A stretch of 64,000 bases of DNA from Norana najaformis (taxonomy: Eukaryota > Annelida > Clitellata > Crassiclitellata > Hormogastridae): the NCBI GenBank assembly GCA_964023275.1, contig OZ029916.1, positions 20,058,064 through 20,122,063 of the forward strand, given 5' to 3'. A model generated the notes under the pieces. That model was not told the DNA's origin. It saw only the letters and a program-made list of their open reading frames with translations, and searched no databases. Shown here one piece after another: positions 4,878 through 63,600 of the stretch. A program made the translations under genes and the position numbers. How positions within the stretch are numbered: position 1 is the stretch's first letter; every line of letters starts with the position of its first letter.

Positions 4878-4960
4878 TTGATTTAACCAATCGATTAAAA
4901 AATAACTTTCTTCGTATTATACAATATTTTTTATAGATAAGTCTACTTTTATACGAGAAG

Positions 4961-12058
<7,098 letters not shown>

Positions 12059-12306
12059 CGTAACTGTGGACCTAGGCGGCTATGTGCCTACATAGATTTA
12101 AGTTTGACTCGCAAGTAATAGTTACTTTCTATTTTATTTTATTTTTTATTTATTTATTTTTAAATTTCTTCAAAGAAAGAAATATTACCGTTGGATGAAT
12201 TGACGTCCTTTATTCTTGTCAGGGTCCATCATGCATGCGGTAGAATATAATACCTTATTTGGACGAGATTGCGTCTAGGCAAATGTAAACGTGGTACGGT
12301 GCTACC

Positions 12307-15423: not shown

Positions 15424-15650
15424 CAATTACTAAGTTACAAAGAGCAAAGCGTAGAACATTGGGGTCGCTGCGCGTGACAGAGTCCAGTAATAGCAGCAAA
15501 AGATTCCGTTCAATTCAGCAGGACTAAGCATGATACACTTGTTCTATTATTATAATACCTGTTGGATGTGCATGCCGAAAACTTCGAAGGCCCATATGGA
15601 TAGTTCAGTGGCTGTTTCTTGCATTGTCTTGTTTTCTATCTGTCCAGAAT

Positions 15651-17485: not shown

Positions 17486-17533
<48 letters not shown>

Positions 17534-37421: not shown

Positions 37422-40400
37422 ATGGAAAAACGGACAAGAGAAGCTAGCATGGCAATGATTTTGCGAACAGTTCTTTATTATTTAGCTACAATTCAGTTGT
37501 GTGTGGTTTACAGCACCGCAGATACTGGCTGTATATGGCACGATTACAATTTCAATGCACTAGACAAGTAAGTTTCTCCGATGACGGTGGGTTTAATATA
37601 GTTATCTAGCGCCTGTATAAAGTAGAAAGCAAAACAGAATTACTGTTACATTTATGTAGTGCACTGTGACATCAGTTGCTTGCTGGCAGATGTCACTGAT
37701 TGTAGATAGCTAAAGCGATCCCAGCGTATGATGCACGTAATCCAAAAGATCTTAGAGTATACTTAGGGCTGCCAACCGTTCATGATTCGCCTGGACAATC
37801 CTGGAATCGGCCTTGCGCGTCCCGTGTCCCGGATTGATCCAGAATTGTCCCGGAACTTGGTGTAATTGGTGTAAATGTTTACTTCACCAAATGTTGTTCT
37901 TTTTGCACACTAAACTCGAACAGCCGACCATAAATAAGTTTTACAGAGCGACCATGGAATAGAGGGTAGTTAGGTTAGTAGACCCAATAAATGACATCTG
38001 CAAATTGCATGTATATATGAACTTTGCTTGTTCTAGGCCCTGCAGCCTGGAGGTTACTGGAATTTAATAAACGTTTTGCTCTTGAAGTTGATTCAAATTT
38101 TATTTATAGGCCACTTGTCTCTTGATGATTTGAGTCAAATCATTTGACTGTTTGCATTATGTCCTACATTAGGCTGACGCATTCGTTACATACAGTGATG
38201 TGGACAGGGTAAATTGGTACTGGCATATTGAGTGACTATGCAGGCATCCCAGATTGGCAGAATCAAAAGTTAGCAGCCCTACTGCGTTATGACTATCCCT
38301 ACATTCGCTGTGTAAATTGCGTGTGTGGTGGTCAGCATTACAAAACAAACGTACACCTAGCAAAAGATTTGAAGTGCATATGATGTCCAGGGTAAGACAG
38401 TGCACCCTGGGTCATTGGGCCATTTAAGTAATACGACCTTGTTGATTGGGCTACAACTTCATGGATTGCAGTGCCACCACACTGTTGGTATTTTACCAAA
38501 TGAGGACATTAGACAGTACGAAGCACTGAGTGCTATATCATACTGTATTCTAAGATCTTTGTTAATCCCATAGAATCCAGTGTAGCGTAATGGTCTGTTT
38601 GAAAATTGGATTACAGAAAGTCTTTTGTGCATTTTGAATAACGTTGTAGGTCCCCTTACATCCGATGTGAACCAGGAACTAGAGTCATGGTTGTTGTGAA
38701 TTTAATTATGCATTGTGATTTTGATCACTTGATTGAGGCAATTGGTAGTTGAACGCTAATCTCGACGAGTGGAACTAACCATACCCCTAACCGTTACCCT
38801 AATCCTCCAACTTGGATCTCCTGCATTGATGGCTGCTATTTTTCAATTATACAAGTGAACAAATTTGTGTGAAAATGAATAAACTGACAAATCAACTACC
38901 AAGCTTGACGAAAATCATGTGACAGGCTTCATCCAGTTCCATGGCAGGCATGATTTAGTTCCTGGTTTGTGGGTCCCGTCAGTATGATCTACAGTGTTTG
39001 AAAAATACTATCATGTTTAAGGTATTTTCATGAAATAAGAAAATCGGGACAGACTACTGACTATAGTCATCCAATTTAGTGAAGATTGCTGTTCTCTTAA
39101 GTTGACTACATTAACAATGAATCTCCAAATCTTTGTTTATGAATAATTTCATTAAAGGTAGTCACTTATTCCCAATGTAAAATAATATCACAGATAATCC
39201 TGTAACACTGACAAAAGAAAGTGTGGCCAGGTTTGTCAAGGTTTTTCTTGCAAAAAGGGAACAGTACATTGCATGCATGTATTTCCTTGTTGCTTGGCTT
39301 GGAATCATTGTGACAACATCATGCTGACATCAGGAAACTTTGTTGTTGGCTTTTGTCTGTTGGTAGCATCCGTAGCTGTGTGTAGCTGAAGTTTGTGTAT
39401 CACCTGTAGATTCAACTCTTTTTAGGCTGACACGGAATTGGACTGAGGTTTTAAGAACTGATGGCAACATTTTGCTTTGTATTTATTACATGTCAAGTTA
39501 GTCTTTTGAACTCTTGAAAATTTGTGTTGTTGTGTTTTGAGTCTCTGTATATGTATTTAGTGGAAACCTTATTTTTGCTGTGTCACACATTTAACTAAAT
39601 ATTACATCAAGAGACATCTGAATATAGATTGGGTGTGCTGTTTAGGACACACCACACTCTGGGCCACCAGGGTAGTCCGAATATTTGTTGTATTGTGTTA
39701 TAACTAGGTCGGCTTTGTATACTGATTAAAGGAAATGGAAAATGTTGTGATTTTAGATTGCCTTGGAATCTTGTGGTAAACAATGGGTCAAACTATGTGG
39801 AGTATTTGCTCAGTCTTTGTCAACCTTTGAAGTCTTCTGTGGAGGGTTGTCCACAGAATACGTCTGTGTGTCAGATTAGCGGCCATCATGGTACATCGAT
39901 TGGCAAATACTTCGCTTCTTTTGAGAACATCTTAACTGAAGATGCAACTAAAAGGGAGTTGACGCTTATGTTGGAGGGATATGATGACTGCCAAAATGGA
40001 AACAAAATGCAGAAGATGAAGACTTTTATCATATTCAAATGTGGAAAAACATTGGTGAGTGCCATGGTTTGTGTTCATCGCTGTGTGTAATTGGAAACTT
40101 TCCACACCCAAGAAACCTAAGTTAGAAACCAGCTTAGTCAAAGCTACTGAAGATGTAAAAGTTTTGTAAATTGGATGGACTGATAGTTTTTTAGAATGCC
40201 TCATATGGATTCAGGTACTAGTTTAAGTTCTGTGCAGTTGTTGGCTCTACTTATTGCACTGCATAACCTGCAGTATTTTCATTTGCTTTACTCAAGCAAG
40301 GTCATAAGCAGAATAAGCAATTTGAAAATTCCATTGCTTCAAAGTGGTGTTACGCACTTGTGCTGGATGTTATGTTGCCATTACAGAAAACCACTATAGA

Positions 40401-43400
40401 ACTGAGCAACAACCTTAGAACTTGGAGTCAGGCCATGTTTTGACTTTTGATTCAAACCACCTTGGAGCCAGTTATTTCTAGCCACTACTTTGGTCATCAC
40501 TTACGTTTCATATCATTCAAACAAATTTAACAAATTTTGTGAAATACTGTCTGTAGTTTATAGCGAATGTCTAATTTTACTTACTTTATTATCGTTTTAG
40601 GGTTCACCCACATTTCTAAACTCTTATGCGTGTGACACATACTTTGAGTGGTTTACAACGACTGCCTGCAAATCACCAGCCAAAGTCAATGAGACCAAGT
40701 GCTACGTGTATGATGCTGACCAGCAAATGAGAGATTTGAATCCCCTCATTAAAACAAGTGGATCTTATTTGGTGGAAATGGATGAGGATGAAGGAGGAGG
40801 AGGAGAAATGTACATCAATGTTTGCCGAGACATGGTTCAACGTGAGTGCCATCACTAAAACTGATTTGTTTCGTTTCTGAAGATTTACTTGTTTGCAGGT
40901 TTTATCAATTTATCTTTTAGGAGGATTTGTTAAAAGTAATTTCTGTTATTAGTACAGACTAGTGTATATTGTACATAAACTGTTGGGTGAAGGGAATTCA
41001 CTGTAGCATGCTGCCATAAGCTTTGTTCTACAAACAGCCATATTGTTGTCTAATCTAACCTATTCTGATGAATTCTGTGGCATCTTTATCATAATGTCCA
41101 GTGCATCAATCAATATTTGCTTCAAGTGAAATCATAATCAAAAATCAAAATCTGTTGGAGAAACCATGTTGAACATTGATAGGTTAGAAAAACCAGAAGT
41201 TAGGCTGTGTGTGTAGGCAGTTTGAAGCAGATGAGTCTTAAGTTTAGGCCTGAAGGACATCAAAGAACTGACAGAATGAACAGAACTGGGAAGCGAATTC
41301 CAAGGCTTTGGATCAGCCACCAAGAACACCCAAGAACCCAAGCTGTTAATTGTTAATTGCTAAATTTGTTAATTATTAACTTATATTGAACCGCTGTTTT
41401 ATGCACAAGGCATTAACCGATGGTGACCAAAACTAAGTTGCAGTCAGGTCAGCAGCATCCAGAAGATCAGTCCACAGTCTGGTTTTATGCCACATTTTGC
41501 TTTATTATTAGAGACATCTGAAAGGTGTGACTAGGGAGGAAAGTGTTTCTCGAGCTTCCTCTGATGAACTAATTCAGATTTTCTGTGGTAGATTGCTCCA
41601 AAAGGGTGCTCCATTGTGTGAGAAGGCGTATGTTTGCTTCATAGTCTGGGAGCCAATATTAACAATTATTTTTTATCTGGTCCCTTGTGTATTACAAGAT
41701 GCATCCACTGTCAAGGCCTGCCCATGAGTACCTGGTATGTTGGATCTACCCATCTCAGTCAGAATTGTTAAATGCAATTCTTGATGCATTTGACAATTTA
41801 GACTGTATGGCCATAGTTTGAATGGCACAGTTAAAGACAGAATGTTTATGGCTGAAGTATATGGAACTTCAGTAGTTCTGTAAAGAAAAGATACTGCTAA
41901 GATCCTGGATGATGTTTGTCTTTATAAGACTGGAAATGGTGCCGATATGGTATGCCTATCTCTGTATGCATCTCTGTTGTTTATTGCATGTATGCCAACA
42001 TTGACTAATTTAATAGGACTATAAGAATTACAGCCATCTATGGCTGATGGTTTAAATATTTTATTTAATTTGCTATATAAGACACAAAATTCCTGATATG
42101 ATGTAAGTGGAAGGCTAAACAGATGTCCAAACGTTGGATTGCAGTTGTCATGTTTGCACATGAGTCAAATGATCCTTCAACCTTGGAACCAATGTCTCTG
42201 AAGTGTTTCTATGGAGACATGTAAACAAGTGTGTTACTTAGTTTCCTTTTTCCTTGACTTTGACGGCAAAGGTTCTAAACATCACCAAGCCCAATTTGAA
42301 ATCGAATTGACTCTCGAAGCTTCACAGGTCCCTAGTTTCAAGTCAGGATATGTGAACTGATTTCAAGCCTGGTTATTAACCAAAACATTTGCTACAACAA
42401 CTGATGCAATTAATTTTTTGTGTCTTGTTGATTACTATGTGTGGATTTGTGTAGCAACTGGATGCCAGGGTAGTGCAGTGTGCTTGTTCAGGAATTCATC
42501 CTACATTCCTCTTGGCTCAGTTCAGTCAGATTCTCTGCTACGAATGGACTCTGATGGCAGCCTATTCATAAGCTACGCAACAACAGCAACTCCCACAGCC
42601 GACTGTTCCTCTCCAGCCTCAACTAAGGTCACCTTCAGATGTCCACGAAGGGGAAAGGTCAGTTCTGGCCTTAATTTGTCTGTTTTTAGGAATTTTTGAT
42701 GCAAGAGCTGACATTCCCTTTGCACCAGTAACATCAGTGTGCTGTTAGAAATGAGATTATTTCACAGAATGACTGTATAATTATCTGTTTTCTCTGTTTG
42801 TGTGGATGCTTTTGTGAATTTCAATCTCAGACTACAGTTTGACTTTCACTTTGCAGTGACCATCTGTGTGATGCCTTCCAAGCGCATTATTACAATGACA
42901 CTTCAAAAATTATTTGATTAGCTTGGAATCAGCCATAATTATTGCAAGGGTCCACCTTCACTGACTGCGTTTCTTCCCAGTCATTTCTGTTCACGTTCTC
43001 CTCTCCTTGTCTTCAAGTATCTGGGAGTTTTGTTATTCTGCCCTTCCTGGTGCTCAGCTGAGTCTCCCAGCAAGAATAGATGTGATATTGATTATGATGC
43101 TGAAATTAGCGATTGTTGTACTGATGTGGCCAAGGTGCCTGCATGTTTGTCTAGCATGTCATTTTTGATCAATCCGTAGGTCACCTGCAGAATTTGTTCA
43201 ATGATTTTCAATTGCTTTGACTTCTATTGTGACTAAACCTGCATTCTTGGAGATATGTCTTGCTTTCACGGTTGTTTTTGGGTGTTTTGGACGGTGTTCA
43301 AACATTTGTTTGTCGAGGTCTTGTGTGCCTAGTTTCGACTTGTCTGCTCTGGGAGTTTCAGGTTGCTGTCTGGAAAGTGTCAAGCTCCAGTTGGAAAGTC

Positions 43401-46400
43401 AGAGAGTCCTTGAGTTGGTGCTGACTGTTCTACTGTTCTAATGTTCTTCTTTATGAATGGTGCTGACTTTTCTACCATTCCAGTGTATGACCAAATTGCT
43501 AATGAATATCCTTCACAGACCTGGTGGCTGAGGGATGTATGGATGCAGCATCTTCCGCCATCTGCTTGGCATTGTGGTTCGTGTGTTGCGGGCCTTGTTG
43601 CCCAATGTTCCTCCTCTTCTTCAATGCTACATGGTCCAAGAACTCTGAACATGGTGTCTGCTGTCGACTTTGAATTGGAATCTTTCAGTTAAGTTCTGCG
43701 TGTCTGCAGGAGCCCACCATTGATGACTCTGAGTTATTGGCGCACTGTTCGCTTGTTGATAACTTATTGTTCTTAATGACTTTAACTTAATTAAAGCTGG
43801 CATAGGCAGCATTATGTAAGTAAGACAGTAAGTAAGACATTTGTTAACATGCCATATGTCCATCGGCTGAGCGAGGAATCGTAGGCGTTATGTGAGGTAC
43901 TTCAAAGGTCCTGTGCTTATATACAGAAATACATAATTACGTGATGCTGGATCAAGTTCGTAATGTAAAATCTCTGCTCTGGGTCTAGGAAATGATTGGT
44001 TTATTGTGTTCCAGTTAGTTACTTGACTGGACCCATGACAGAGATTTCTCCTTAGGAGCCTGATGAATGTGATTAGAATCTTATCCAATCTGATATAGTG
44101 GCTTCATAGACATTTTTGTCATTAGCTCCTAACAATTTTACAGATACAGTTATTCTTTGGTTACTCTGCAGATTGTACATCCTGTATTTTGTTAATATAT
44201 GGATACTATAAAGTAAATGTATCATATTTTTCTGCTTTTCTGAAGGGTGGAAGGCCACAGCTGATATCATCTAATGAGTGTCAGTATCATGTGGAATGGG
44301 AGACTGAGTTTGCCTGTCCTGCTGCTGATCTTACAAGCAAGATGTGTCGACTGAGTCAGCCACTTCGTAATATCAATATCGACCTCAGTTCGCTTGCCAC
44401 AGGTGCAGTGGGGGTTTGATTTTACAGGTTGGGTAAGACTTGGGAAAGTGACATGCCTTTGGTTCATGAGTGAATTCCTCAAATGCATGTTCCTATAGTT
44501 AAGGGTAATTCAGAAACGTTTAATTTGATAGTAGATAAATCAGTCATTACCCAGCACAGATACAACCTTTCTATGGGATTGCTTGGCTTAACAACAAATT
44601 GAGAATCTAAAATAAAATGAAATAATACTAATTATTACCATATGCTTTTCTTATGCCCCACACAATGGCCCATATGTAGCAATTAGGAAGCCTGTATGGG
44701 AGTATTGTCATATTCTCACCAATCTTCCACATATGATGTTGCTGTTGGGGGTTATGTTACATAATAGCTGGTAAGCTATTTATTATTTGCCCTCATCACT
44801 TATACTATTAGTGCATGATGGTGCATTTTTTTGGTGCAAGCGATTTTTCATTTGAGGCAGAAACATGTCGCAAGCGTTTCCACAGTTGAGCAGCATTTCC
44901 TTATAAAATGTGCATGGTACAAACCCATTTTCCAAAATCAGAAGCATTGGTGCAAATGGTCTATGTTTTTTTCTGTTGGCTAATTTTGCTGCTTTAAACC
45001 TACATGCACTGGAATTTAGAATATTTGAAAAACTTCTATGCAGCATTTTTTATCATGAGCAACATTTAAAGTTTTACAAAACTTATTTTGTTGTATTGTG
45101 AACAAAACAAAGCAAGTCTTCATCAAATTCCAAGACAGCTTGTTGGCTCTTAGCCATTATGATATCTTTTCTAATTGGCATTTTATTCTAAAGTTCTGCA
45201 TTTGTTCTGCTATATTACTCTGCAGTTGTATGTTCTTTCTTGCAGGTTTTTTCTTCTGACCTTGTAATGTAATTAATCTAACTGGCCTTTTTTAAATGGC
45301 CTCTATTATGGCCTGTATTGTGATCAACTAAATATTTTCCATTTATCTTTCGGCATTGTGGAACCTGTGGTTTGTGTTCTGGTTAGGTCGTGATGAAGCT
45401 GTTTCTGTCCAAGCAGTGGATTCAGCTGGAAAGAAGTATACATATTCAATGAATGTGTGCTCGCTAAATTTGACAGATAAAGGAGTGTTGTGTGGTAGTG
45501 ATCGTTCAGTTGCTGTTTGCCAGTTTTCCGAACCTGACTTGAAAAAGTCTCTTGGCCAGCTGGAAAAGCAGACATTAAGGTTGGTGATACTTCATTCATA
45601 ACTATTCACCTTGAATATATTGTAATTCTGTGCATTTTAGGAAGTCAAGGCAAAGTGATGATTCAAAGTAGTGATTGTCTTAGCCATTTCTTTGTTTGTA
45701 GTGGTTGTTGTCTTATGCCGCTTTAATTATTCTTTCATTACCTTCTACTTGGGTTTATGAAGTCTGTAATTGTGTTTCTCTTCAGATATTCTGATCGGCA
45801 GTTGTCGTTGACATACGAAGGAGGAGATCCATGTAGCAGTGGTTTCCACCGAAAAACAATTATCCACTTCCACTGTAATGACACTGCAGGTATGAAGCAG
45901 TATCTATTTATATATTTATTTCTGTAACGTTCATAATATATATATATAACATATATTATGTAGTATTTTATGCATATATATATATTTGTATATGTAATTA
46001 TATATGCATCAAAATACTACTGGTAATCACAATACTGAAAATTAGAAACTATATATTCATATATAAAAACACACATATTTATATAGAAAGTTTCTGATTT
46101 AATTCCATTTCTAAATATTATATTTATATATCAGTTTCTAATTTTAACTGCTGTGATTACCAGTAGTACTTCAGTTGATGAGGACCTACATAATGTGGCT
46201 TGAATGGGAAAATCTTTTTGGTGTCGTAATTTAGTCACATAGGATTAGTATTTATTTGGTTATTTCTGGTGATCTGTAGACTGTAAATAAAAGCCAGTTA
46301 ATGTGAATAGAAAGCGAAGTGCATCTTTTTAAACTCAGAAAGGTTAATTACAGAAGCACGTAGTGCATTTGCTGCTTCCAGTGCACGGATAAGGCATGTG

Positions 46401-49400
46401 TTCATAGGAAGCATCACTGTAGTAATTTATGAAACAGTCCACATTGTAAATGTGAAAATCCATCAAAGTGGATTGATGGAAATCCATCAGCATGGTCTCA
46501 GCAACTTTCTGTGGACAGACAGTTGCTGAGGACATGTTGCAATTTCCTCTATAACAATAGGACTGTTATGACAGCAGGCCAGTTTTTAAATGGACTTAGT
46601 TTTTAAGTGGACTTGTTGGTTGGTTAGAACTTCTTTTTATTAGCCAAGAGATTGTTGTTTAGAATATAAGTGTAGCAAAAGACTATGTATTAAAGAGGTG
46701 TTGATATGTTTAGGCAAAGGGTTTCCAGTATTCTCTGGAGAAGACAGCTGTACATATATATTTGACTGGAACACTGATCTGGCATGCGTAGCTGCTCCTC
46801 TTGAGTGCCAACTGACTTCAAATGGAGCAAAGTATGACCTGACTCGTCTCATGAGATCTGATGGTTCAGGTCAGTGTCATTTCATTCAGCGGACTTGTGT
46901 GTCCCCTTTATGCTTCAAACGCAGTTATTTGAAATTGTCTGCTGTCATGCTAATTATGATAATCCCTACATAATGAGCTTGAAATGGATGATGATGATGA
47001 TGGCGATGATGACAACTAGGCTGATTATGAAAAGGGTGGAGGCTCTGGGGTTGATAGTAATCTAATCTGTAGCCTTATACAGTTGCTATTATCAACCGAT
47101 GGTCCCTGCTAGTTGTGCTAGAATGTAAAATTTAAAGCCAAGAATTGTTTTTCAGATCTATAAAGAACTCTTAAGTTTGAAGCCATCCTAGGAAATGAAA
47201 ATATTGAAAGTACACTGAGTGTGATTATCTTGATCACGGGGATTGCATTGCTCTTCTGCTTAAGTGAATGTGCTGCAAATTGAGTGACATACGATTTAAT
47301 ATTAAACATAATTTGTTTCTGTGTATGACTTTTTGGCAGATAACTGGCATCTGACAGATGCTGAGACAGCGGAAAACATCGTTCTGAATGTCTGTGATGA
47401 TCTTGCAAACAGTGATGGCCAGTCTGTCAACTGCCCTGCTGGTGCTGCCATCTGTCTCATCAGTGAGTCTGTTGGCAGCTGCTGTTTGTATCGTGACAGA
47501 ATTACTTAGACGTGATCAACGTTTATGGTAGAAATCAACTGTGCATTTTCCTTTTGAATTGAGGTCCATTCAATAGACATCTGCTGCAGATTGCAGCCTG
47601 TTATGAAAATTTGATTAGCTTTCAGTTTAATACAATGTTACCTCTGATTTATTTGTAGCCTCTTGGAAGTGCTGAATTAGCAGTTTTTCATGATCAAAAG
47701 GCTCCTTATTGGTTGAACTTGCATTTTAAGAACTACTATTCAAAGTTTTCTGTTATTGTCTATCTTTTTTTATTGTTAATATTATCATGGTGATTTTGTT
47801 CTTGCTTTCTGCTGTAGAAAGCAGCACAGTTGCCGTGAGCCTGGGAAAGTTCAAGAGTTCACCAACTTTTGACCCAGAAACTCATAGTATAAAGTTGGCA
47901 TATGAAGATGGAGATGATTGTCACCATGGCCCAACTGTTTCCAAGTACTCAACCAACATAACTTTCCAGTGTAGTACAGGTCATTAAGCTTTATTTCATT
48001 GGTTCTGACATGAGAGAGAGATGTCACTCTGCACCCCTTACGTGCACATGTGCTAATGTAAAAATAACCTGCTCAAATCTGTATAGTATCACAGTTGAAA
48101 CAGCAACAAACTTCTACTAGGGAGAATGACAGATCTGTAATGTCAGTGTCCAGAAGCACAAGGCCAGAGCATATATCACCAGAATACATGTTATGTCAAA
48201 TGTCTAAGCATGGGACTGGAGTGCAAATCTCCTGAGTTAACATTATATAGTTTTTGTGATTTGCTTGTTTTTCTCACTGAACTTGACTGAACTTGCTACA
48301 GTAAGTATATAATGGTGATAATGATAAGTGAGCAATCAAAATTGTGTGAAACTGGAATTGTTTTATGATTCAGTAAAAAATTTAATCTATCTTTATTGTG
48401 TTTGATTATGCTTCCATCCAGGTGGAGATGAGAATGAACCAAGGTTGTTGCACAAGACTTCCAGTGGCTGCCATTATGAATTAGTCTGGTACACTGCCTT
48501 TGCTTGTGCTCTTAGTCATAAATCTGGACAGAACTGTCGAGTTGAAGATTCAGTTGCAGGTACTATGAAGTCCGAATCTGATGTTGAAAATCAGCATTAG
48601 TATTTCACATTTCAAATCTTATTAGTGTTATTGTTATTATAACAACAATGGTGCAGCAGTTTTCATGGGTGCAGTAATAACAGATAATGTCGTATTACAA
48701 TATGCAATTTAGAAACAATCAAGCCTAACTTTCTGATCGCTTTCATTATGCTGGTGTTCATAATGGAATCTTGTGGTCGTGGGGGGTACTGAAGTAGCAG
48801 TGCCAAAGCTATCAGCAAATGTTGCACGAGAGGCTATTGTCTCTTTCACACTGCATTATAAGTGACTGAAAGGGGCTGATGTGAATTCTAAGATATATCA
48901 CATTCTGTCCTGTGCTGCAAGTTGTGGCATCCTGGCTTAAATTACAGATAAGTAATTGTAATGTTTAGCAACTTTACAAACTATTCCAATTTTTAATAAA
49001 CTATTATTTTGTGACACACTTTTGTTTTGTGTAAGAGTTTAATATATTTTCATTTTAAAATAGTCATTGAAGCAAATGAATGTTAATTATTCCTGTGGTT
49101 GGCTTGTGATTTGCTTAGGGTATAGTTTTGACCTGAATCCACTAACAAAGCCTGGAGACCGTTCCAGTTCCTACTATAAAGTGACAAGTAACACATCAGA
49201 ACATGACTACTATGTAAATATCTGTGGTCCTGTCACAGACACTGCCTGCATTGGTCAGGATATAGGTGCCTGTCAGGTGCAAAAGGCTGATACCAGGTAT
49301 TCCAAAACATGTCTTCTATACGTGGTTAAATACTTTCATTACAATTCGTAGGGAAACAGTAATCAGTTGTTCTGGTGAAGCTTTGTTATCAGATTGGGTG

Positions 49401-52400
49401 CAGTGTGCTTTCAATAAACCCGAAACAGTTGCCTAATTCAACAACGTGTTCAGACTTGGTAGAATGACACAGAAAGTTAATAATAACTACTTTTAGTGGA
49501 CACATGGAATAGAAGCCAAGGATATGTACTGGGCAGCTCATGCACCCTGGTTAGCTAGAGGCTGCTTGATATCCATGCTGGCTTTGTCAGGAACTGCCAC
49601 CCAGACAATCCTCTGGACAGTTGGCGGGATAAATTTAGCATCATCAACATTGCACGTAGTAGGTCTACTGACAGCCGTACCGTTTTTACTGTCCTTTTTC
49701 TTGCATCCTTATGTTTGATCAATACTGTAAACTTTGTCCCGCAGTTCAGACACAACCACCAGCAGTGGTGGAGAGTCAGTTGACAAGATGCCAGTTGCGG
49801 GAAAATATAGAAGGCCGAATGTGGCATATTACAGAAATTTAGCTTTGTTTTTACATCTGGTAGAGCATACAAAGTAAGCAGGTTGTCCACACCAGCATAG
49901 ATTTTCAGCATTCAGAGTTTCTGCAAATAGGAACACCATTTTTATCACATTTTCAATTTCATCCATATTGTAAAAATCTACCAGACTTGTTGCTACATCT
50001 GTTCTATTTACTTTAAAGTATTTTGATTGAAGCGCAGAACTTCCAATCACTCCACTGGCATGCCTGTCCTTCAGCTATCTTGCTATAAGAATATAATACA
50101 GAGAAGATGGAGTAGCACAAATTAAAGTAATGAGAGTTTTGCAGATTTATGTTAACATTTGTGATTTAACTGTTTGGATTTCAGTCAAACGCACGTCACG
50201 GGGAAGGCTAACCAAACACTGCACTACTATGATGGCATTCTCAAGCTGGTCTATGATAACGGCGACTTCTATCGTACTGATCCACCAATTGCACGGAAGA
50301 CTGAATTTGAGTTTCTCTGTGACACTGAGGCTGGAATAGGTCAACCTCGTTTTCAGATTGAGGCCAATCATACATACAGCTTTGAATGGATGACAGCATT
50401 TGCTTGTCCTCCATTGTTTGTTGATTGCTCAATCGTCGATTTTAATGCCAAAAAGCGTTACGATCTGAGTCGGTAAGAGTCAGCATAGGGTTTACATTCA
50501 AGACATGGATAAATCTCTTGATCAAGACACTTAGTGACAGCAAGCAGCGAATCCCAAAATTTATTCATTTTAATAAAATTATTTATTCATAGTTGTGATT
50601 AATATTATTTTAAAGTTAATTAAACCTAAATTAATTAATTTTTTTATTAGAAAGATGTGTAAGAATCTAGGCTTTTAAATTTCAAATGTTTCAGTCCTCT
50701 GAGACACTTGGATAAAAACCCTGTAGTATAGAAGAATAGCATCGTTAGGACAACTTGCATTGCATTTGCATTTTCATTGTTTTACAGAGGAGTTTCTATA
50801 TGCACTTAAAATTGCTGTTTTTTCTTCTGTTACTTCTCCTTGTTTTTTGTGCTTTACTGTTCCATGTGCTGTTCTGCAGGCTCTCTCGAAGGAATGCAGA
50901 TGGCAATTGGGTTGCGGAACTAACTAAGAGTAATGGTGGGAAGCAGAAGTTCTACATTAATGTCTGTCGTCCAGTGATTCAGCTCGATTTAGTGGACTCT
51001 GATTCCTGTGATGCAAGCGCTGGAATCTGTGTTACTGAGGTGTCTGGTAATCGGGTGAGTTCTTCAGTAAATAGATAAGTTATCTGAGAAGTTGGCAAGA
51101 GAGTCAATAAATGCCAAGAGTTTGGTAATGAATCAGTGACCATATGGATCATTTTATATATCAGTGTGAGTTGATGAGCTAATGGTTTAATGAGAGCCTT
51201 CCAGGTTGGTTGTTTGATGCACTCAAACGAGATAGTAGCATGGTAAAATAACGTTTATTGGTTCATTCTACATGTTCATGTTGTACTGAGCTACTTCTTT
51301 TGGCATGTGCCTGTGTAAGTACTGAGCTACCTCTTTTGGCATGTGCCTGTGTAAGTACTGAGATACCTGTTTTGGCATGTGCCTGTGTAAGTACTGAGAT
51401 ACCTGTTTTGGCATGTGCCTGTGTAAGTACTGAGATACCTGTTTTGGCATGTGCCTGTGTAAGTACTGAGATACCTGTTCCTGCATAAAAGTATTTTGCA
51501 GTACAATGGTAGTGTGTAACTAGTTTTAGTTTGCCTATTCATGATTAAGAGCAACTATTGCCTGCAAAACGAAATGCAAAAGAAAGTTAATGCCACAAGT
51601 AATAATAAAACTGCATATACTGATATTGTCTTCTGATTTTTTCAACAGGAAATGGTTAAGGTTCCTAATTTAGGTCGGTCGCTGAAGGGCCCAAAAGTCA
51701 CATCTGATGGAAACCTGTTGCTTGAATATACAAATGGTGGGGTCTGTGATCAGAAGAATGAAACCAGGCATTATGCTGTAAACATCACCCTTGTCTGCAA
51801 CAAGGAGCGCACAGTATGTTTGCAAAATATCCAAGGCCAAAAAATTTTGAATTTGGACATGACAGCAAGCTTTCAGTGGGTCATGTAAATAAACTCAGTA
51901 TAGAGTACAGAGACCTGTACAGGTCTGTATAGGTGACTATAACTGCTTTTAACATGGTGCTCATAAATTGTTTTAGTATGTTAACATTTATACAGTTGTT
52001 GTCAAGCGTTCCCTTGCACAGACTGTCTTTGATTTTCCAAAACCAGGATTTCTGACTTGAGCGGCAGCTGATTTTGCCAGTGTTTTCTCTGTGTGTATTT
52101 GCAAGCAGAAACTTTTTGCAATTTCTGACACATCAAACAGTATGACAACAAATGAAATGGATCCTGCAGTCATGAGTACTGAAGTCATACAAAGTCAGAG
52201 GTGTTACTGGAGTTCCTTATGTGAATTCCTCACTCATTTTGATGTTACACCGTGTGTGTCTTGAACCATCTTTGATTTATTAATTGTTGTAAAACAAGTT
52301 ACTTGTTTACTGATGCATTGCATTTTACAGAATATTTAAGGAAGAAATGATTGTATCATTGAAGTTTGTGGTGTGAATGTATCTAATCTTTGTATGTATC

Positions 52401-55400
52401 TAATCTTTTATATAGCGCATTTTAAGAACCTCTCAAAAGCGCTGTGAACATGGCTGCCCAGTTAATTTAAACAAGTAAGTAATGAATGAATTGAATGAAT
52501 AGCAGTGATCGTACAGTTTGCATTGCATTTGCATTTGTCTTGTTTTGCAGAGATGCTACTTGAAGCACTTAAGATTATGGTTGTTTCTTCTGCTACTACT
52601 TCTTGTTTTTTGGTATCTGCTATTTTAGACGAGCGGTCCTTCGTCAGTTAACCAAGTGGATGACTGTACTTACTCTGTTATGTGGGAGACTGCATTTGCA
52701 TGTCCTGAAGAGATGACTAGTGAGACCTCAGGTGATGCTGCGTGCAGTATCAGTGATCCAATCACTGGTCATACCTATGACCTACTGCCACTACATACAA
52801 GCAAAGGCTATGTTGTCAACAACACAGGTCGAATATTTAAGGTAATATGTGTATGTATGGATGTATGTGTGTGTGTATGTTTATATGTATGTATGTATGT
52901 TTGTTTGTATGTGCGCATGTATGTATGTTTGTATGTGTGTATGTTTGTATGTATGTATGTATATAGCACATTTTTAGAACCTCTTAAAGGTGCTAAGAGT
53001 GTAAACACTGAAATATTAAATTTCAATGTTGTCCACTGCAATTTAATATTTTTCATCTTATTTAGGATAAAACTACAGAATTTACATGTAGCTTTATTTT
53101 TCTGCTCTGCATTTTATTGTTTATTATAAACGGTCAAGGGATGTATGTTTTTATTGCTTTTTCGACCGATGTCTTGACTGACAGCCAAAAGAGGGTGCAG
53201 CAGATACAAAAAATTATCAGTGTGGATTACGGGTGCAATAAGAGACCCGGTGAGAGACTGGCAAAGAAATTGAAATACAGTATAAAATATTATGTATAAT
53301 TGGGTTCTGTTGCAAGATGATGGATATAGATAAGAAGTGTGATAAATTCTGGTGAAATGATATGGATCTGGTATAACAATGCTAAACGCCTTGTGTGTTG
53401 TTATTTTATCAGTTGAACATCTGTGGTCCTGCTGCTGAGTGCAACAAAACAGGAGTGGCTGTATGCGATGACAAAGGCCAGCCACTTGGCTTTTCCCCCA
53501 ATCGCACTATTCGGTTCACTGATGGTTTGGTTGAACTTGTCTATCATGGACCAGATACTGCGGCTGGTAATAATCTCTGTCTGCTTCATTTACCAGAATA
53601 TTCGATTTTCAAACATGCAAGAAAATTCGCACTTATAACTGGGCTTCTGAACTTGTTCCTGCTTTTTTGTTACATTTTTATCTTGTTTGAATGAATGACT
53701 TAGAGTTCTGGATAGTCTGTATTTTCAAAGTTATATTTATGATTGGCACTGTGATAATTGATGCACTTGTGTATATTATGATACTCCCAGTATTAGATTA
53801 GATGTGCAAGGGCTTCATATTTATATCTGCTTTATGTTTATTTCAACATGAATGTTATTTTAAATTCATTACTTTTTATTATGCTAATTTTGTACCGTTT
53901 TAGAGAAATCATTTACAGCTGAGCAGTGTTATGAGACAGATTTGGTTGCAGTCTGAGAAGTCTTTCTAATATCTCATATCTTGACTGTATCTGTTTAAAA
54001 GACTATGAATACGAACCACTTTTTCACTTTAAAACTTAATGGCTTATGTATTATGGTAATGGCACAATAGAAGTCTCCAGATTAAATTAGATCATTGTTC
54101 CTTAGTATCTTTTCCTCTTATGATTTGTCTGCAATTTGTTTTAGGCAAGCGAAAAGTAAGCATGGTTTTTACATGCAACAGCCGACTGGAACAGAACTTG
54201 GCACTTGTAACATTTGTTGAAGAGGAGGCTGAGACACTTCTATTCAGCGTGGAAACCCCTTTGGCCTGTCTGTCTTACGCTGTTGACTGTCAAGCCTTTG
54301 ATAGAAATGGCGACAAATATGACCTTTCACCTCTCATGAAAGTTGATGAAAACTGGGTTCTTAAAGATTCAAAGAACAACAAATACTACATAAACATCTG
54401 TCGACCGATAAATAACGTGAATTCAACAAAATGCCCTGGTTGGTTGACAGCTTTTCTTGCCTATATATTTATTTACATGAGAACTGTTCATATTTTTTAC
54501 TATATACTTATATACTTGAATGTAAAAAAGCTGTACATTTTATTTACAGTTTGTCATTTCTGACACAAGGTGATCTGTCAGAAGCCAACTTACTCTGTAC
54601 TGGTAATTGATTCTTGTGTACTTGTCTGAAGGATTGCCAGATCCCAGTGGATGATGTGCTGAACAGAAGCTGTCTGCTTGGGATTGATGTTAATTTTCAT
54701 TTTAGAGGAGTACACATTGAGCTGATATTATCAGAGAAATAATATTCATCCAGGTGCATGCTTATTATTATTATTGCAGAGTGTCATTGTTTTATTATTA
54801 CTTATTATTATTGTTGTTATTCATCATCTGTAAAATCTTATTTTGTGTTCTTGTTTTTTTCCCACTAGGTGGAGCTATTGGTGGTTGTCAGGTAACATCT
54901 GCTGGTGAGATTTTCAATATGGGCTACATCCAGAGTCACCTGATAGCCACTGAGCCAAAAACTCTTACAATGCAGTATGAGAATGGTGATATTTGCAACA
55001 AAGGAACTGAGAATGAATCTCATCGAAGTACAAGAATCATCTTTTACTGTTCCACTCGAGTAGGTTCAAGTAGAAACACTTTAAGCTGTTTTCTGTTGAT
55101 AAATGTCTTAACGTTCCTGCTATTGCATGTTGGCAAGGGATGTAGCCCTAATTGTTTACATTGCAGTTCAGTAACTGTGAACACGCTTACTTAATATAAT
55201 TAATAATTTTATTACAGAAATCTGGTTATGGAGCTCATGACAGTAAACATTCTGTGTCTGTTTATGGTTGCACATGCATCTCTGTCATACAGAAATCAGC
55301 ATAAATCATTCATCAGTGTATGAGAGCCAACTTTTTGGGATTCTGAATGTTGTTGTGTCTTTCTGTTACACCCACCCAATTTAGTAATCTTTTGTAATGT

Positions 55401-58400
55401 ATGAAAAAAGACTTCCTCACCTTGTGCTTTGATTAAATATTTACTGTACGTTTTCTTCTTAGCATGAATTGCCAGTTTTTGTTCGAGAGGAGGACAACTG
55501 TGAATATGTGATCGAATGGCAAACGCCTTTTGCATGTCCAGTGCAGGTAATACGAATTACTTGATTGCCTTACCTCATGGGAGATCAGGTACACTAATCA
55601 GACTCAGTTGTGTTAATGTTCATGGGTCAGGAGTTGAAGGGTCTTGTGCATGTAGGACAAACGTGACAACAGCAGTTCATGAACCAGACTGTCTGTCCTT
55701 AAGAGTTTTGTGACCCAAAGGCAAATCTCTGATTTCTTGAAATATGCCTGAATTCAAACCTCAGTGTGACATGTCACTCATAATTCAGACATTTTGTGCT
55801 CTCTTGTATTGATTGAGTGATTTTGTATAGTTTTTATTCTCAATTTACTGCTGATTCTGTGATTAGTAGTGAAATGAGGCAATGTGGTACAGTTGGAACA
55901 TGTAGAATGGCACAGTGTTTTCATTGTGTGCAATGTTTGTGTCTGCAGTATGAATGTAAGCATAACACTGCATGTGTGGTGCATCACTTAGTCCTCAAGT
56001 GATTGTCAACACATTACAAAAACACACAATCAGTACAACATGTAAATGGTAGGGTGCTTCAGGTGCAAATGTGCAAATTTTCAGGATCAGACCCGCTGTT
56101 GTTTTTGTATTTTCAACACAGCATGCAGTTGGTGACGATTGTAAAGTTGAAGATCCGCTGTATCATGTGACCTTTGACCTGAATGAAATGACCAAAATTG
56201 GTGACAGTGACTACATGGTTTATGGTGATGGTCGACAGAATTTTACCTTGAACATTTGTGCATCTCTGCGGACTCACAAGGATGATGGCTGTGCTGGCAA
56301 TGCCGGTGCCTGCATTGGTCAAGGAAATACGGCAACTAACATTGGTATGATCTCATTAGTGTCCAACTGCTGATCTGAAAACACAAACCTGTCTTCAAAC
56401 TTGTCTTTAACACCTTGTACAATGAATGCAGTAAAGCAGAAAGAATGTGTCCAGTTATAAAGCTGGTTTGACCACCCATCAGGCAGGGTGAGAATATAGT
56501 TGGTGTGTTCAATTTAGTTGAGTGTTTGGGTGTTGTATGTGTTTTATCTTTGACCCAAGCAGTAACTAAATAAAAGTTCACTTTTCATAGAGAAGTATAA
56601 CTACAAGTATGAAGCAAAGTGGTAGTAGCAGTTGCATTTTGGTCTTGCTACTTATAAATTTTTTATGATTCATAGGAAACTACAGCAGGCGCTTGGAGTA
56701 CGATGACGGACAACTGAAACTGGTTTATGTTGATGGTGAAGAAACCTGCAATGGAAAACACAACCGGACAACAATCATTGTGTTTACTTGTGATCATAGC
56801 AAGCGTGGTGCCGCCGGTCTTTCTTACGTTCAAACCAAGTCATCCGACTGTAGTCACTGGTTTCAGTGGCAGACGTCTCTGGCCTGTCTACCTTTCAGGT
56901 TAGCATGGAAATTAATGATCTGGTACCTGTATCAGTCAGGATACCATTAATCATCTATGATTCTGAGAACAGATTGATAACAAAAACAACATTTGTCGCT
57001 GAAAACCTGGAAAACCATTTGTTATTATTTCATGATGATGTTGTAGCGTCGGTCTATCTTTCAACTTAGGACGTGCTAGACTTAAAAGTTAAGGTTTTTA
57101 TATTGTTCCAGACAAAGGTGGTGTTACTTGGTTAAGCTAAAAATAAAGTGGCCAAGTAATTCTAACTCTTCCTATGTTGCTGTGTGTTTATGTCCACCTA
57201 TCTCAGGCATTGGCAACCTATAGCACAAGTGTCACTTTGTGGCACGTTAAGAGATTTCAGGTGGCACGTTGAGTGGCACCAGAAATCGTATTACGATAGC
57301 CGGTTTTAGGTAAATAGATAGAAGAGGGGAGAACAATTAACAAATTAAGGATAATAATGTTCTCTGTGAGGCTATGATGCTATGCACTGCTAGATGAGCT
57401 TGAAAACGGTCCATCTGGTATCTGCTGGTCAACTTCTTTGTCACTGGAGTGGTATGTGCAGGTCAGTTTAACAACCTTTGCCAACAGGATGATGATGAGT
57501 CTTGCTGTCCTTTACCAAAGCTTGGAACTGGCGCCCCTATGACATCCATCACGACCTGGTCCTTAGCTGCTATGCTTATTTGGTGTTAAGTAATCCAAAT
57601 AAAAGTAATAAAATAGGCATATGCAGCTAAACTGTTTATTTTTGCAGTTATTTTGCAAAAATTATGTATCTGCAAATTTGCAATAAACAAAATTCATATA
57701 TCTGCAAAAATTTACGATAAAAAAGACACAGACAAAAAAATGAGAGACTTTCAAGATGACTGGGTAGATAAATATGGCATATATGTATATATTACACATA
57801 TGTGCACAGGTGACACGTGAAAGGACACATGAAAGGATCAGTGTGTATTGTATTCTGCCAAAAATGGCACCCTGTGCAGAGAACCAGTATTGCTGATATA
57901 TACTGCCGATCTATGTGTCTTATCTATATATCTTTCTGTCTAGATCTTGTTTTTTTTATCTGACCTGACTTCCATCTGTTTGTCTGCTGCCCACGTTTCC
58001 CAAGATTCCCTCTCTCATTCTCTCCTACTTTCTTGGTCTCTCTGTCTTGCATTTGTTCTTGTCCTGGAACTTCTGTGTGTCTGTTATGCATGCACGGACG
58101 GCCAGCTACTCCCTTGTGCGGGGTTGTTTAATTGCAATTTCTTCCAGAGCCACATGAGTATATCCGTACTTATACATACTTATATTGGTATATTCATGAA
58201 TTTGTGCATTCATGGATATTTATATATATACAGTGTTATACATGCTTATTAAAAATTGACCAAAACTCTTAAGTGATTATTAAAAATAGAACAGATTTAT
58301 TTTAAATTTTGCTTGAAGTGACAAAATGAATAACAGTGAATTAATGTATAGATGCATTCAGTCTAATTTAGCTTTGAATATTTTTTCTTTTTTAGCCAAG

Positions 58401-60621
58401 CCGATTGTAGCATTACAGATAATAAGGGCAATACGTTGAACTTTGAACCACTGACAATGATGGATGACAATTATGAAGTGGGTGGAAGTGACTCGGCAAG
58501 TGACCCTGTAAAGTTCATCATTAACGTCTGCACCACGCTTGTCCACATGAAAGGTATCATCATAATCGTATCGTAATTGTAAACTCAAGATTTCTACAGC
58601 GCCCAGCGAAAGCTAAGTTGCGGGAACCACCTTATTCACAGGCGCTTAGTCAGTACAAAATTGATAAGCAAGAAGGGTTTGGTTCCAGGTCAAGATCCAA
58701 GACTCAGGCAGACAGACAGTCAAATGGCTATGGTGGGTGGTGTTTGGAATTGAATCTGCAGGACAGATAAGGGAAAGAAGAGGAATCAGGATAGGATCTG
58801 CATAAGAGGAGTGGAAGACCTGCGCAGAGACTGGGCTGGAATCGTGCAACAACACCCTTCATTCTTCTGTCATTCTTTCCATATACAAAGCAAGTCACAC
58901 TGGTTGTGGGTGGGTTCCAGAATTTAGTCCATTGTGTTCTGTGATCTTCCTCAGTCCAGTCGCTTCACCGTCTTCTTATGTATTTGATATTGGAACCTAG
59001 TTACTGTGTCTAGATCCCTAGCAGTACTTGGTCATTATGGGTAGGAAATGCCTGTTAATCTGGAGAAGGATTGCACAAGTACATGTGAACTGAGTAATTC
59101 TTTGTTGAACCATGAAGCCTGTGGAGAATGGTAGTCTAGTTGTGAAACTGATGAACTTGTAATTGTGCCTCAGGTTTGTTCTGCTCTAAAACCATGTGTT
59201 CTTGGAGGATCTGTGATGATATGTAACAATTGTATTATTGCCATTCTTTAAATTAAAATTCATTCAAAGGTTCTCTGACTTCAGTTTGAAGTATTATCAT
59301 CTGAAAGCCTGATTCTGAAATGCTGATCTTGTTGATATTTGTTATGCAGGAGTTTTATGTCCTCCCAATTCAGCAGCCTGTATGATCAGGTTGAATGAAA
59401 CAGACCCAAAGAAAAGGTCAGTGTTTTGTGTACCGTTTCCATCTCTATTATGGTCTGAGAAAAATATCAGCATGGTGATGTTATTGTTGCAACGACCAGT
59501 TAATTCTGCAGTGTATGATGCTTCTGATTAGTGTTCTCAGCACTGTACCAGAAGGCTAACCTTCACTTTAAGTCTTGCAGATAGGCTTAATGTTTGCTTT
59601 GTGCTTTTTTATGCATGCTCTCACAAGTTACTTAAAAGATGCTATAAGAAGTGTTTGATACATACATGCGTTCCAATTCAGATTTACTCTGTGCCTCAGA
59701 TTCAGGTTTACTGACTTTGTGCACATAATGATGGCTTTAAAGTCATAAATAAATACCTCTGACACTATTTTCATTACCACCATTTGTAACTGTAAGGAGT
59801 GAAAGCAAGATGATGATAAGAAGAATTGTCCGTAATAGCATTTCGGTTGAGTAGTTTGTCAGCCATGATTCATGTTTTGTCTGTTGCTTTAGGTACACAA
59901 GTATTGGTCAATTAGGCAAAAGAATCCTTGGTTTTGAAGATGATCATGTGATTCTAACATACGAAGGAGGTGACAACTGTTCAAATGGACAACTGAGTAA
60001 AACGATTGTTCGATTTGACTGTGCTCCAGAGGCAGTGGTCAGTTTTTTATTTTTATCTTTATTTTGGAGGCTGATGCTCTCCCTACATAAACCTGATAAA
60101 TTCTGTGAAGTTGATTTGGTTCAAAAAAAATTTGACTGTGCACTAGGCATTGTGAAGTGAGTTTCAGTTGCAAATTGGGTTGTCTCAAAGGACAGTCCTT
60201 TTTACAATCTGTGGTTGAAACATACTTGATTTTCTTCAATGCAAGCCATATATAGATGTACAGCGAACGAGTTTATCACTATTCACGATGCTTATAACCC
60301 AGAGCAGATTGGCCGTGAAAAGACCTGAGAAGAAGACCAAGGGATAGGGAGTTTTAAACTTTTGTGAATCGGTTCTCAAAACAGCTACCACTGAACTACA
60401 TTTAAGCTTTGCTTGTTATCATCATATTAACATAGTACTCATATGTAAGTTAGTGCATATTGCATGTGTTTATGTATTTATGTAGCTGATCATTTCTGTA
60501 GGGCCTTCTAATTACCTCTTGTACCTAAGTTCAGCTACATACTGTAGTAATACTACTCAGTGAGAATTTGTTTTAATGACAATTATTTATATTGTGTTAA
60601 TTACAATTATTGATATGATTA

Positions 60622-60661
<40 letters not shown>

Positions 60662-63600
60662 CTATATGATTAACTATATATATATAAACATTAATGATTT
60701 TTAGCTTAAGGTTAATTACCAGCATTCAAAACTTATGTTCTTATTTAATAAAATACTTGAAACCTTAGTGGTAAATGTTTAGTTTCTGTGCAGGAGACAT
60801 GTAATCTTAGTTATCATCAGTTTTGCTGTCCTTCATACAAGGCTGGTGTTGAACGTCTGTTATTATCACCTAAACTAAGTCTTTACCCTTGTGCTATTAC
60901 TTTAAACTTTACTGTAGGATAGTGAGCCGGAATATGTAACAACTGAATCCGGATGCATTCATCGCTTTGTTTGGTCCACTCGGAATGCCTGTATTTTGAA
61001 CAGCACCCAGGTGCCAACTGGCAATTGCTCAGTCAAAGACCCACTTACAGGTAAGCATTCTGTTTAGTTTTCATAAGGTGTGATTTGTTTGGGGAAAGGT
61101 ATAAGGGAACTTGCGTCCTCCCCAATGGTTTGGACTATCTCCCACTGAAGAAACATTTCCACCACATTTTCATTTTGCTTCTATCCAGAAGTCTTTTCCT
61201 CTGCTGTCAGCCAGAAATGTTATAAAGCATTTATGCAGTAATTTTGTGCATTTTTCATTTGGTCATTTAGATGTTTGTATTTAATGCTTTCTTTAATTGC
61301 ATTTGTTTTAGGTCATTTGTATAATCTAAGTGCCCTTAGGAATGGCTTTGAATCGTACATAGTGAGTGATGCCCAGTACGATCATGAATACAATCTGAGC
61401 ATCTGTGGACCGCTGACTAACTCTCCTTGTGGTCCAAATACTGGTAATAAACCTTATGTTTTTATCATAGATACATTATAGATACCGATAGTAGCAGTGT
61501 GCTGAAAGTCCATTAAAGACTAGCACATTCACATCAGCCTTCATTAGATTTCTGATTTTAGTAGTTTGCACTTAAGCTGAAACGTTTTTAATTACCTAAA
61601 ACCTTAAAGAATGTACATCACATTTTTGTACTTAATTACGCAGCTGTGGTGAAAATCTACATGGAATAAACATAGAAAACATTTTCATCGTGAAGTTTTC
61701 TTGGTCATCCTTATTTGTATATGTGCATAGACTAAATAAATCTCTAACTGCTAAAATTACTATTTTGACTTAATTATAATACAGTTTTATTAAACTTATG
61801 ATATTTTAACTAATCAGTGACACACCAAACCCCAGGACCAAATATAGTAAAAAACTTTAGGAAACAAATTCAATGAATTGCCCTTTTGTATTCACCAAGA
61901 TTTTGTTTTAAAATTTGATGGTAATTTAGGTTCGTGTCAGACTGAGAAAAATGGTGGAAAAAGGTCATTTAATGCTGGCCAGCCCAGCTCTGATGTTGCA
62001 TTTCTCAGCAGTGGCTTACTCAGCCTGACTTACTCAAATGGAACAGTATGTCATCACAACAGTAAGCCACGCTCGACAACCATCCACTTTATCTGTGCCA
62101 GTGGAGTTGGCAAAGGAAAACCAGAGTTTGTTGGGGAAGATCCAGATGGTTGCTCTTACATCTTCTCATGGCACACAGAGCTAGCCTGTGACCAGCAGGT
62201 TAGTTTTCAGTTGTCATATTATACTTTGCAAAAGTTAATATTGATGGCTTAAACTTTGTTGCATTACTTAGGCTAAAGATATCTTAGCTTTTGGTTGGAT
62301 CTGTCGGAAAGTCTGTTGACAAAACATTCTTCTGAATATTTTTAATATTTTAAATTTAATTGTATAGTGCCAGTCTCTACTGATGAGCATCAGTTGATGA
62401 CTGTACGTATTTACTGAAGGTCCCCACATCTGCCTGCAGATGAGCTTGCTCTTCTTATTGAGCGCTAACATCTTTTAGGCTAGTGGAGAGCGTTTTCAAG
62501 TCTTTTCATATTCCTTAGAAGGCACTGTGGAAATGTTCAGTTAGGCCGACTTTTCTGCAGATTTATAGACGTTGCTGCAAATTAAGTGGAAAAAATACAT
62601 TAGTTTTATTTAGTTTTAATTTCTGAATGTTTAGATTCGTTGTGTGGCACATTCCGATGAACAGGACTTTGATTTATCCTCATTGAAAATGGATCAAGGG
62701 TTTTATACAGCAAAGGGGAGTTCTAATGCCACTACGTACTTTATCAATGTTTGTCGTCCACTTGGGGCCATCTATCGCAAGTTTTGCCCACCAGGAGCCG
62801 CTGTTTGTCGAGAAGATTCAAACGGAAACCTGATCGTAAGATAGCTTCTGTTGAATTATACTTACCCCGAAGTAGTACAGTAAATAAGTGAAGCATCACC
62901 TTGCAGACGTTTTGTTTTTAGTAGAATGACTTTGTAAAAAAATTGTTTTGCAGCTGCTTTGTGTTTTGCAGTGAATTTCTGTACTTCTTTTAGGAACTAA
63001 TACTGATAATAAAACGTTACATTTAATTTCTGGTACTATGCGAAAAGTTTATGTGGTGGAAATTTTTTTTTAATTTTATTTTTCCTATCACACCAAAATA
63101 TTTATGTCACAAACTCATTCAAGTTAACAGATAAAAGGTGAGGGGAGGAATATTAGCTGTGAGTCTGTTACATATCTTGACAACAGTCATCATCTGAGGT
63201 CTGTCATTAGTCTTGAGTTTCAGGAACTCTCAATACTTGTGCATCTGTGGAAAAGTTTGCCCACCAGAGACTTTTCTGTGTCTAGAAGATGGCATGGCCT
63301 TCCCATTCCAACTGTTTGCTTTGATAGTAATTGCGATTTTGTTTGTATGATTTGATTCTCCGACATAACAATGAAAAGCTACAATGTAGCCACTTGGTAA
63401 CACATCTGTAGGTTAATTAAACAGAAAGTGTAGCTGGTTCTTGTCTTGTATTCTGGTCAGTGTGGTGTGGTTATAAAGTACAACTTGGTGGTCTATCGGC
63501 AGCATAATGGGCCTGTAATGTATTGAATAAATATCAATGTTGATTCAAGCCTGCTGGACCACTGGACGACCCTGGACATGTTGTTTGCTCACACTTTTCT

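Follow-up and report, generated by a model that had tools for sequence, protein, structure and literature searches.

Candidate mannose-binding pockets lie in a different set of repeats in the CI-MPR (IGF2R) gene of the annelid Norana najaformis

Results

A stretch of 64,000 nucleotides from the annelid Norana najaformis (GenBank assembly GCA_964023275.1, contig OZ029916.1, positions 20,058,064 to 20,122,063 of the forward strand), hereafter the window, in whose numbering all positions are given, carries a CI-MPR (IGF2R) gene, the sugar-binding repeats of which are the subject of this study. Exon-by-exon reading yielded a spliced model of 29 exons on the + strand (37422..62835), encoding 1737 amino acids, stop-free and with GT-AG introns throughout. 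Cut at the conserved last Cys of each repeat, the model contains repeats 1-11 whole and repeat 12 in part, the gene continuing past the window end within repeat 12. The remaining parts of a CI-MPR, which has 15 repeats, a fibronectin type II insert in repeat 13, a transmembrane segment and a sorting tail, would be encoded beyond that point. In a phmmer search of PDB sequences, bovine CI-MPR (6um1) was colinear with the model over 1672 query residues (query 63-1734 against 70-1728, E = 4.1e-293), and the tandem CIMR repeats follow the vertebrate order over repeats 1-12. All four stretches tested against Pfam, namely domain 8 (E = 9.6e-25), domain 9 (E = 1.5e-18), domain 11 (E = 1.4e-24) and the N-terminal 171 amino acids, scored above the cut-off for CIMR (PF00878). 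The same Cys pair is missing from domain 5 in the window and vertebrate receptors. Judged by architecture and orthology, the gene is a CI-MPR / IGF2R, with a layout of candidate sites that differs from the vertebrate one. The region singled out by the initial annotation (54145..56898) has as its exact limits the first base of exon 18 and the last base of exon 22 of this open GT-AG model.

Vertebrate CI-MPR is described as having four sugar-binding sites, in repeats 3, 5, 9 and 15 (PMC7481795, PMC11735522); the initial annotation had named the first three of these and omitted the fourth, in repeat 15 (PMC7481795). As a ruler for the pocket, bovine domain 3 was used, with Q392, R435, E460 and Y465 of the precursor, equivalent to 348, 391, 416 and 421 without the 44-residue leader; R391 is described as essential for binding (PMC7481795). 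In the rule used to assign pocket positions, Gln immediately follows the Cys in the aCQ strand, Arg precedes the Cys in the F-x-C strand by eight residues (Cys-8), and Glu and Tyr stand at Pro+5 and Trp-4; vertebrate domains 3, 5 and 9 all carry their pocket Glu five residues after a conserved Pro. Residue numbers of the other three bovine domain 3 residues and of the domain 9 pocket agree with the sequence positions.

The full Gln/Arg/Glu/Tyr quartet occurs in 4 of the 11 window repeats (3, 5, 8 and 11; all on the + strand), the other seven having 0-2 of the residues. As the initial annotation had stated, domains 3 (44318..46787; Q394, R435, E457 and Y462) and 5 (48508..50407; 6 Cys; Q693, R737, E759 and Y764) retain all four residues in the alignment, in keeping with CI-MPR, and domain 9 (55538..56887, + strand) is without Gln, Glu and Tyr. 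The pocket positions of domain 9, which departs here from the CI-MPR pattern, hold I1286, R1326, T1349 and H1356, leaving one residue of the four; its pocket Pro is Leu, and an NRT sequon at N1325 includes the surviving R1326. Domain 8 (exons 18-20, 54270..55537; 8 Cys) has Gln1137 (codon CAG, in GGCQV; 54889..54891), Arg1182 (codon CGA; 55024..55026), Glu1202 (codon GAG, the first E after PVFVR, at Pro+5; 55487..55489) and Tyr1208 (codon TAT, in CEYVIEW; 55505..55507). The four residues reported earlier for this domain are thus all present, but the Glu had been placed five before the Tyr; by the Pro rule the pocket residue is instead the leading Glu of REEDNCEY, which precedes the Tyr by six residues, as in vertebrate domain 9. 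A quartet in domain 8 instead of domain 9 was likewise a correct observation, made without regard to domain 11 (60993..62189; 8 Cys), which lies outside the region then considered and has a full quartet (Q1584, R1628, E1650 and Y1657) wholly within exon 28 (61930..62198). At the pocket positions, domains 8 and 11 both hold the residues of P-type lectins, whereas their human counterparts have L/F/Q/Y (domain 8) and F/Y/L/L (domain 11).

For comparison across repeats, the 11 window domains were set against 11 vertebrate domains (1-6 bovine and 7-11 human: 6um1, 6p8i and 6z32), with vertebrate domains 12-15 left out of the full comparison and vertebrate domain 1 truncated at its start in this set. 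All four quartet residues were found in seven of these 22 domains (window 3, 5, 8 and 11; vertebrate 3, 5 and 9), three in none, two in one and 0-1 in 14, a distribution that would follow if the four residues were retained or lost together. The sole partial set is that of window domain 7 (52629..54269), where Arg and Glu are kept, Asp replaces Gln and Leu replaces Tyr. In window domain 5, a sequon at N761 lies between the pocket Glu and Tyr (50360..50377), and bovine domain 5 has a sequon at the same place (DNST in the alignment). A scan of both strands for the last-strand motif gave 8 matches, all in model exons (the pattern misses domains 1, 5 and 7), by which alternative last-strand exons hidden in introns were rejected for a pattern that finds 8 of the 11 domains.

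The comparison of quartets depends on the numbering of the repeats, and domain 8 might truly be vertebrate domain 9 if the gene model, the assembly or the count were in error after the loss or gain of a repeat. The same-number domain was the best window match for 10 of the 11 vertebrate domains, the exception being vertebrate domain 9, which scored 187 with window domain 11, 162 with domain 8, 161 with domain 3, 159 with domain 5 and 151 with domain 9. Conversely, 8 of the 11 window domains matched their own number best, with domains 1, 9 and 11 as exceptions. Window domain 1 scored 108 with vertebrate domain 8 and 104 with vertebrate domain 1, because the latter is truncated in the set. Window domain 9 scored 167 with vertebrate domain 5, 153 with domain 10, 151 with domain 9 and 149 with domain 11, and window domain 11 scored 217 with vertebrate domain 5, 187 with domain 9 and 161 with domain 11, being itself the best window match of vertebrate domain 11. 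These two window domains score highest with other numbers and are therefore placed by order, not by score, which leaves some room for an error of numbering. The same may be said of the best tree, built from 20 of the 22 rows with the pocket columns removed and domain 1 of both species left out, which does not join window and vertebrate domain 8 as a clade (such a clade is not rejected, with a P value of 0.18 in the approximately unbiased test, p-AU), and of several non-consensus donors in the predicted gene model. The neighbours, however, fix the count: the two domains 7 form a clade with support 100/98, window domain 8 scores 211 with vertebrate domain 8 against 162 with vertebrate domain 9, and window domain 10 scores 196 with vertebrate domain 10 against 124 for the next. 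The phmmer match is colinear, and the four quartet codons of domain 8 lie at least 20 bases from the nearest exon junction. An artefact of this kind is therefore very improbable, and a shift that would make window domain 8 the counterpart of vertebrate domain 9 was rejected by phmmer colinearity, domain scores and tree. Judged from these sequence comparisons, the domain numbering is sound because the model is colinear with bovine CI-MPR, because window domain 8 matches vertebrate domain 8 best and lies among even-numbered domains in the tree, and because the neighbours stand in order (7 with 7 and 10 with 10). The residues, their spacing and the numbering of the repeats are accordingly stated here as observations.

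In the tree without pocket columns, window domain 8 lies inside the clade of even-numbered domains (support 92/88), and window domain 10 lies outside it. Neither the Arg nor the Glu of window domain 8 is present in any of the eight other members of this clade, and Gln is present in one of them (vertebrate domain 6), so that the residues of domain 8 are unusual for its class and Arg and Glu would have arrived together with Gln. We know of no lectin site in even-numbered repeats. The restriction of Arg and Glu to domain 8 among even repeats favours a gain of the quartet somewhere on the domain 8 branch; the pocket may have been gained in the window lineage, or kept there and lost in vertebrates. 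For vertebrate domain 9, the p-AU is 0.21 for its grouping with window domain 9 and 0.37 for its grouping with window domain 11.

The residue after the loop-C Cys separates the two additional candidates. Domain 3 has a Ser at this place in both lineages, equivalent to Ser386; window domain 11 shares a His with vertebrate domain 9, and window domain 8 has Asn. Presumably, Ser386 and His1329 contact the phosphate. Ser386 is described as lying in loop C (PMC7481795). On sequence grounds, domain 11 is the more convincing of the two new candidate sites and the more similar to vertebrate domain 9, because it has this His, whereas domain 8 has Asn, a longer loop C and a sequon.

Window domain 11 and human domain 11, the IGF2 site, share their position in the chain and form a clade in the best tree with weak support (56/64), and they differ in that the human domain has none of the four quartet residues. 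In the alignment, the pocket-Gln column of human domain 11 holds a Phe five residues before an Ile, a pair that would correspond, by residue count, to F1567 and Ile1572. Mammalian domain 11 is described as binding IGF2 through loops AB, CD, FG and HI, with Ile1572 of the CD loop required (I1572A lowers binding 100-fold) (PMC6684648). IGF2 affinity is described as acquired late and peculiar to placental mammals (PMC6779898), and it has been connected with an altered CD loop present in monotremes (PMC6684648). Aplysia M6PR, a non-vertebrate CI-MPR orthologue, is said to be without IGF2 affinity (PMC6779898).

Elsewhere in the window, a 36-base tandem repeat (5.5 copies, 98% match; 51283..51479) lies in the intron that separates receptor exons 14 and 15. 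Two alpha-galactosidase A-like genes stand head-to-tail on the + strand (4937..12063 and 15534..24192) upstream of the receptor; Melibiase_2 was found in the two exons tested per copy, and near-identical peptides recur. Alpha-galactosidase A is a lysosomal enzyme, so the sorting receptor adjoins candidate cargo genes, probably by coincidence. Between them and the receptor, a tubulin gene in pieces (28557..31524, + strand) comprises a GTPase-domain exon (Pfam Tubulin, E = 4.7e-23) and a C-terminal exon (Tubulin_C, E = 1.9e-40) with a long unusual tail past the tubulin core.

Discussion

The window receptor resembles vertebrate CI-MPR / IGF2R in the order of repeats 1-12, in the quartets of repeats 3 and 5 and in the missing Cys pair of domain 5. 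It differs in where the remaining quartets lie: vertebrates have them in 3, 5 and 9 of the 11 repeats compared, with repeat 15 added from the literature, whereas the window receptor has them in 3, 5, 8 and 11 and has lost that of 9. The explanation towards which we lean, with modest confidence, is that repeats 3, 5, 8 and 11 carry the mannose-gripping quartet, now gone from repeat 9, that repeats 8 and 11 fold and bind like the others, and that the resulting four pockets serve sorting by avidity, repeat 11 having kept an ancestral pocket and repeat 8 having gained or kept one. We infer the folding of repeats 8 and 11, and their binding of phosphomannose or mannose glycans, from the residues and their setting. 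By homology, the Gln, Arg, Glu and Tyr of each quartet repeat would together grip a terminal mannose, loop C facing the phosphate, and several such repeats in one chain would confer avidity for multivalent lysosomal enzymes. Within the first eleven repeats, such pockets are predicted at 3, 5, 8 and 11, of which repeat 11 probably retained the ancestral pocket of odd-numbered repeats.

A single ancestral odd-repeat pocket would fit repeats 3, 5 and 9 of vertebrates and 3, 5 and 11 of the window receptor, with losses in vertebrate repeat 11 and window repeat 9. The initial annotation had also considered ancestral sites lost differently in each lineage, which agrees with domains 9 and 11, the odd repeats sharing the quartet; for domain 8, the gain may predate the parting of the two lineages, with a later loss in vertebrates, or may follow it. 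Its other suggestion, that the third binding site moved by one domain with domain 8 taking over from domain 9, is improbable. Domain 8 is indeed complete and domain 9 down to one residue, vertebrate domain 9 is the second-best whole-domain match of domain 8, and the closing stretch of domain 8 (beginning ten alignment columns ahead of the Arg) scores 125 with vertebrate domain 9, 94 with domain 10 and 92 with domain 8. Without the Arg and Glu columns, however, hand-counted identities of this stretch tie at 18 with vertebrate domain 9 and 18 with vertebrate domain 8. Domain 8 keeps its place in the even clade when the pocket columns are removed, its grouping with vertebrate domain 9 has a p-AU of 0.055, near but above 0.05, and domain 11 is also complete and is the best window match of vertebrate domain 9. 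At the DNA level, no copies of exons 19 and 28 were found among the 29 exons (E up to 1, self-matches aside), and exon 20 gave only matches of 11-16 bases among them (E = 0.15 or worse, self-matches aside), by which another receptor exon was rejected as the recent source of exons 19, 20 or 28. The movement of one site from 9 to 8 is thus not upheld and is too simple a description; the candidate pockets appear from their sequences to be redistributed.

A more serious competitor, though in our estimate a rather unlikely one, is that the quartet of domain 8 is a chance assembly or a non-binding relic, and that only 3, 5, perhaps 11 (and 15) work. Chance was assessed by shuffling each pocket column among the window domains, with pocket states entered by hand from the alignment, a procedure that ignores the shared ancestry of the repeats and deals with few domains. 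Four full quartets in 11 domains compare with 0.79 expected (P = 0.0004), and with domains 3 and 5 set aside, two in nine compare with 0.25 expected (P = 0.012). The redistribution as a whole is thus beyond chance by this test, and domain 8 alone is not firmly so. Several points weigh against four working pockets. With domains 3, 5 and 11 set aside, the one quartet in eight domains, that of domain 8, compares with 0.09 expected (P = 0.09). Cys-7 of domain 8 (counted from the N-x-C Cys) is Asn, where vertebrate domains 3, 5 and 9 have Tyr; its loop C spans 11 residues between Cys and Arg (7-8 in those other quartet domains that have this Cys), is four residues longer than that of domain 3, and contains an NES sequon four positions ahead of the Arg; and its Gln codon CAG runs into GTAACA, which might act as a cryptic donor. 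Structure prediction of exon 28 alone, one exon of domain 11, was uninformative (mean predicted local distance difference test score, pLDDT, 39.8; predicted template modelling score, pTM, 0.26), and the sample is one species. In MRH lectins of the OS-9 type, the quartet presumably serves unphosphorylated mannose, so that it does not prove phosphomannose binding. On the other side, residue frequencies of the 15 non-quartet domains of window and vertebrate receptors predict 0.004 full quartets in nine domains, and the even clade otherwise offers neither Arg nor Glu and a single Gln. The Cys-7 Tyr, kept in window domain 3, is His in domains 5 and 11 despite their full quartets, and window domain 5, also with a full quartet, has a sequon too, between Glu and Tyr.

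Among other proteins, OS-9, glucosidase II beta, GNPTG and ER lectin 1 gave weak matches to the last strands of window repeats (E = 0.0025 to 0.49), and, unlike the window receptor, these contain a single MRH domain or a few; mannose without phosphate is the ligand of OS-9 and glucosidase II beta. Relatives of a 124-amino-acid stretch around domain 5 were absent from 34 pattern matches among genome contigs, and viral contigs gave no match, neither collection being one of animal genomes. In a partial coverage of the literature by titles and abstract starts, we recognised no paper that describes the pocket residues of a non-vertebrate CI-MPR or assigns a sugar pocket to domain 8 or domain 11.

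The quartet of window repeat 11, standing where mammals bind IGF2, suggests, though it does not prove, that a former sugar pocket gave rise to the IGF2 site. Such a starting point would fit the late gain of IGF2 affinity and the change in the CD loop. We tentatively propose, with less confidence than we place in the redistribution of pockets, that the face with which mammalian domain 11 binds IGF2 was converted from a phosphomannose pocket: in early animals, sugar would have been bound at repeats 3, 5, 9 and 11 (perhaps also 8), vertebrates would have lost the sugar residues of domain 11, and mammals would have rebuilt the same pocket for IGF2, while the window animal would keep the sugar form together with a site in an even repeat.

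Textbook accounts treat repeats 3, 5, 9 and 15 as the invariable places of the sugar sites of the receptor. Should the Norana najaformis receptor bind sugar through repeats 8 and 11, its lectin sites would be interchangeable modules kept or lost by lineage, and the avidity of the receptor would be achievable with other spacings of sites. The pocket of repeat 11 is further relevant to the question, itself linked to genomic imprinting, of how an IGF2-binding receptor came about in mammals, and would, if real, give the IGF2 site a sugar-binding precursor, a proposition that can be tested.

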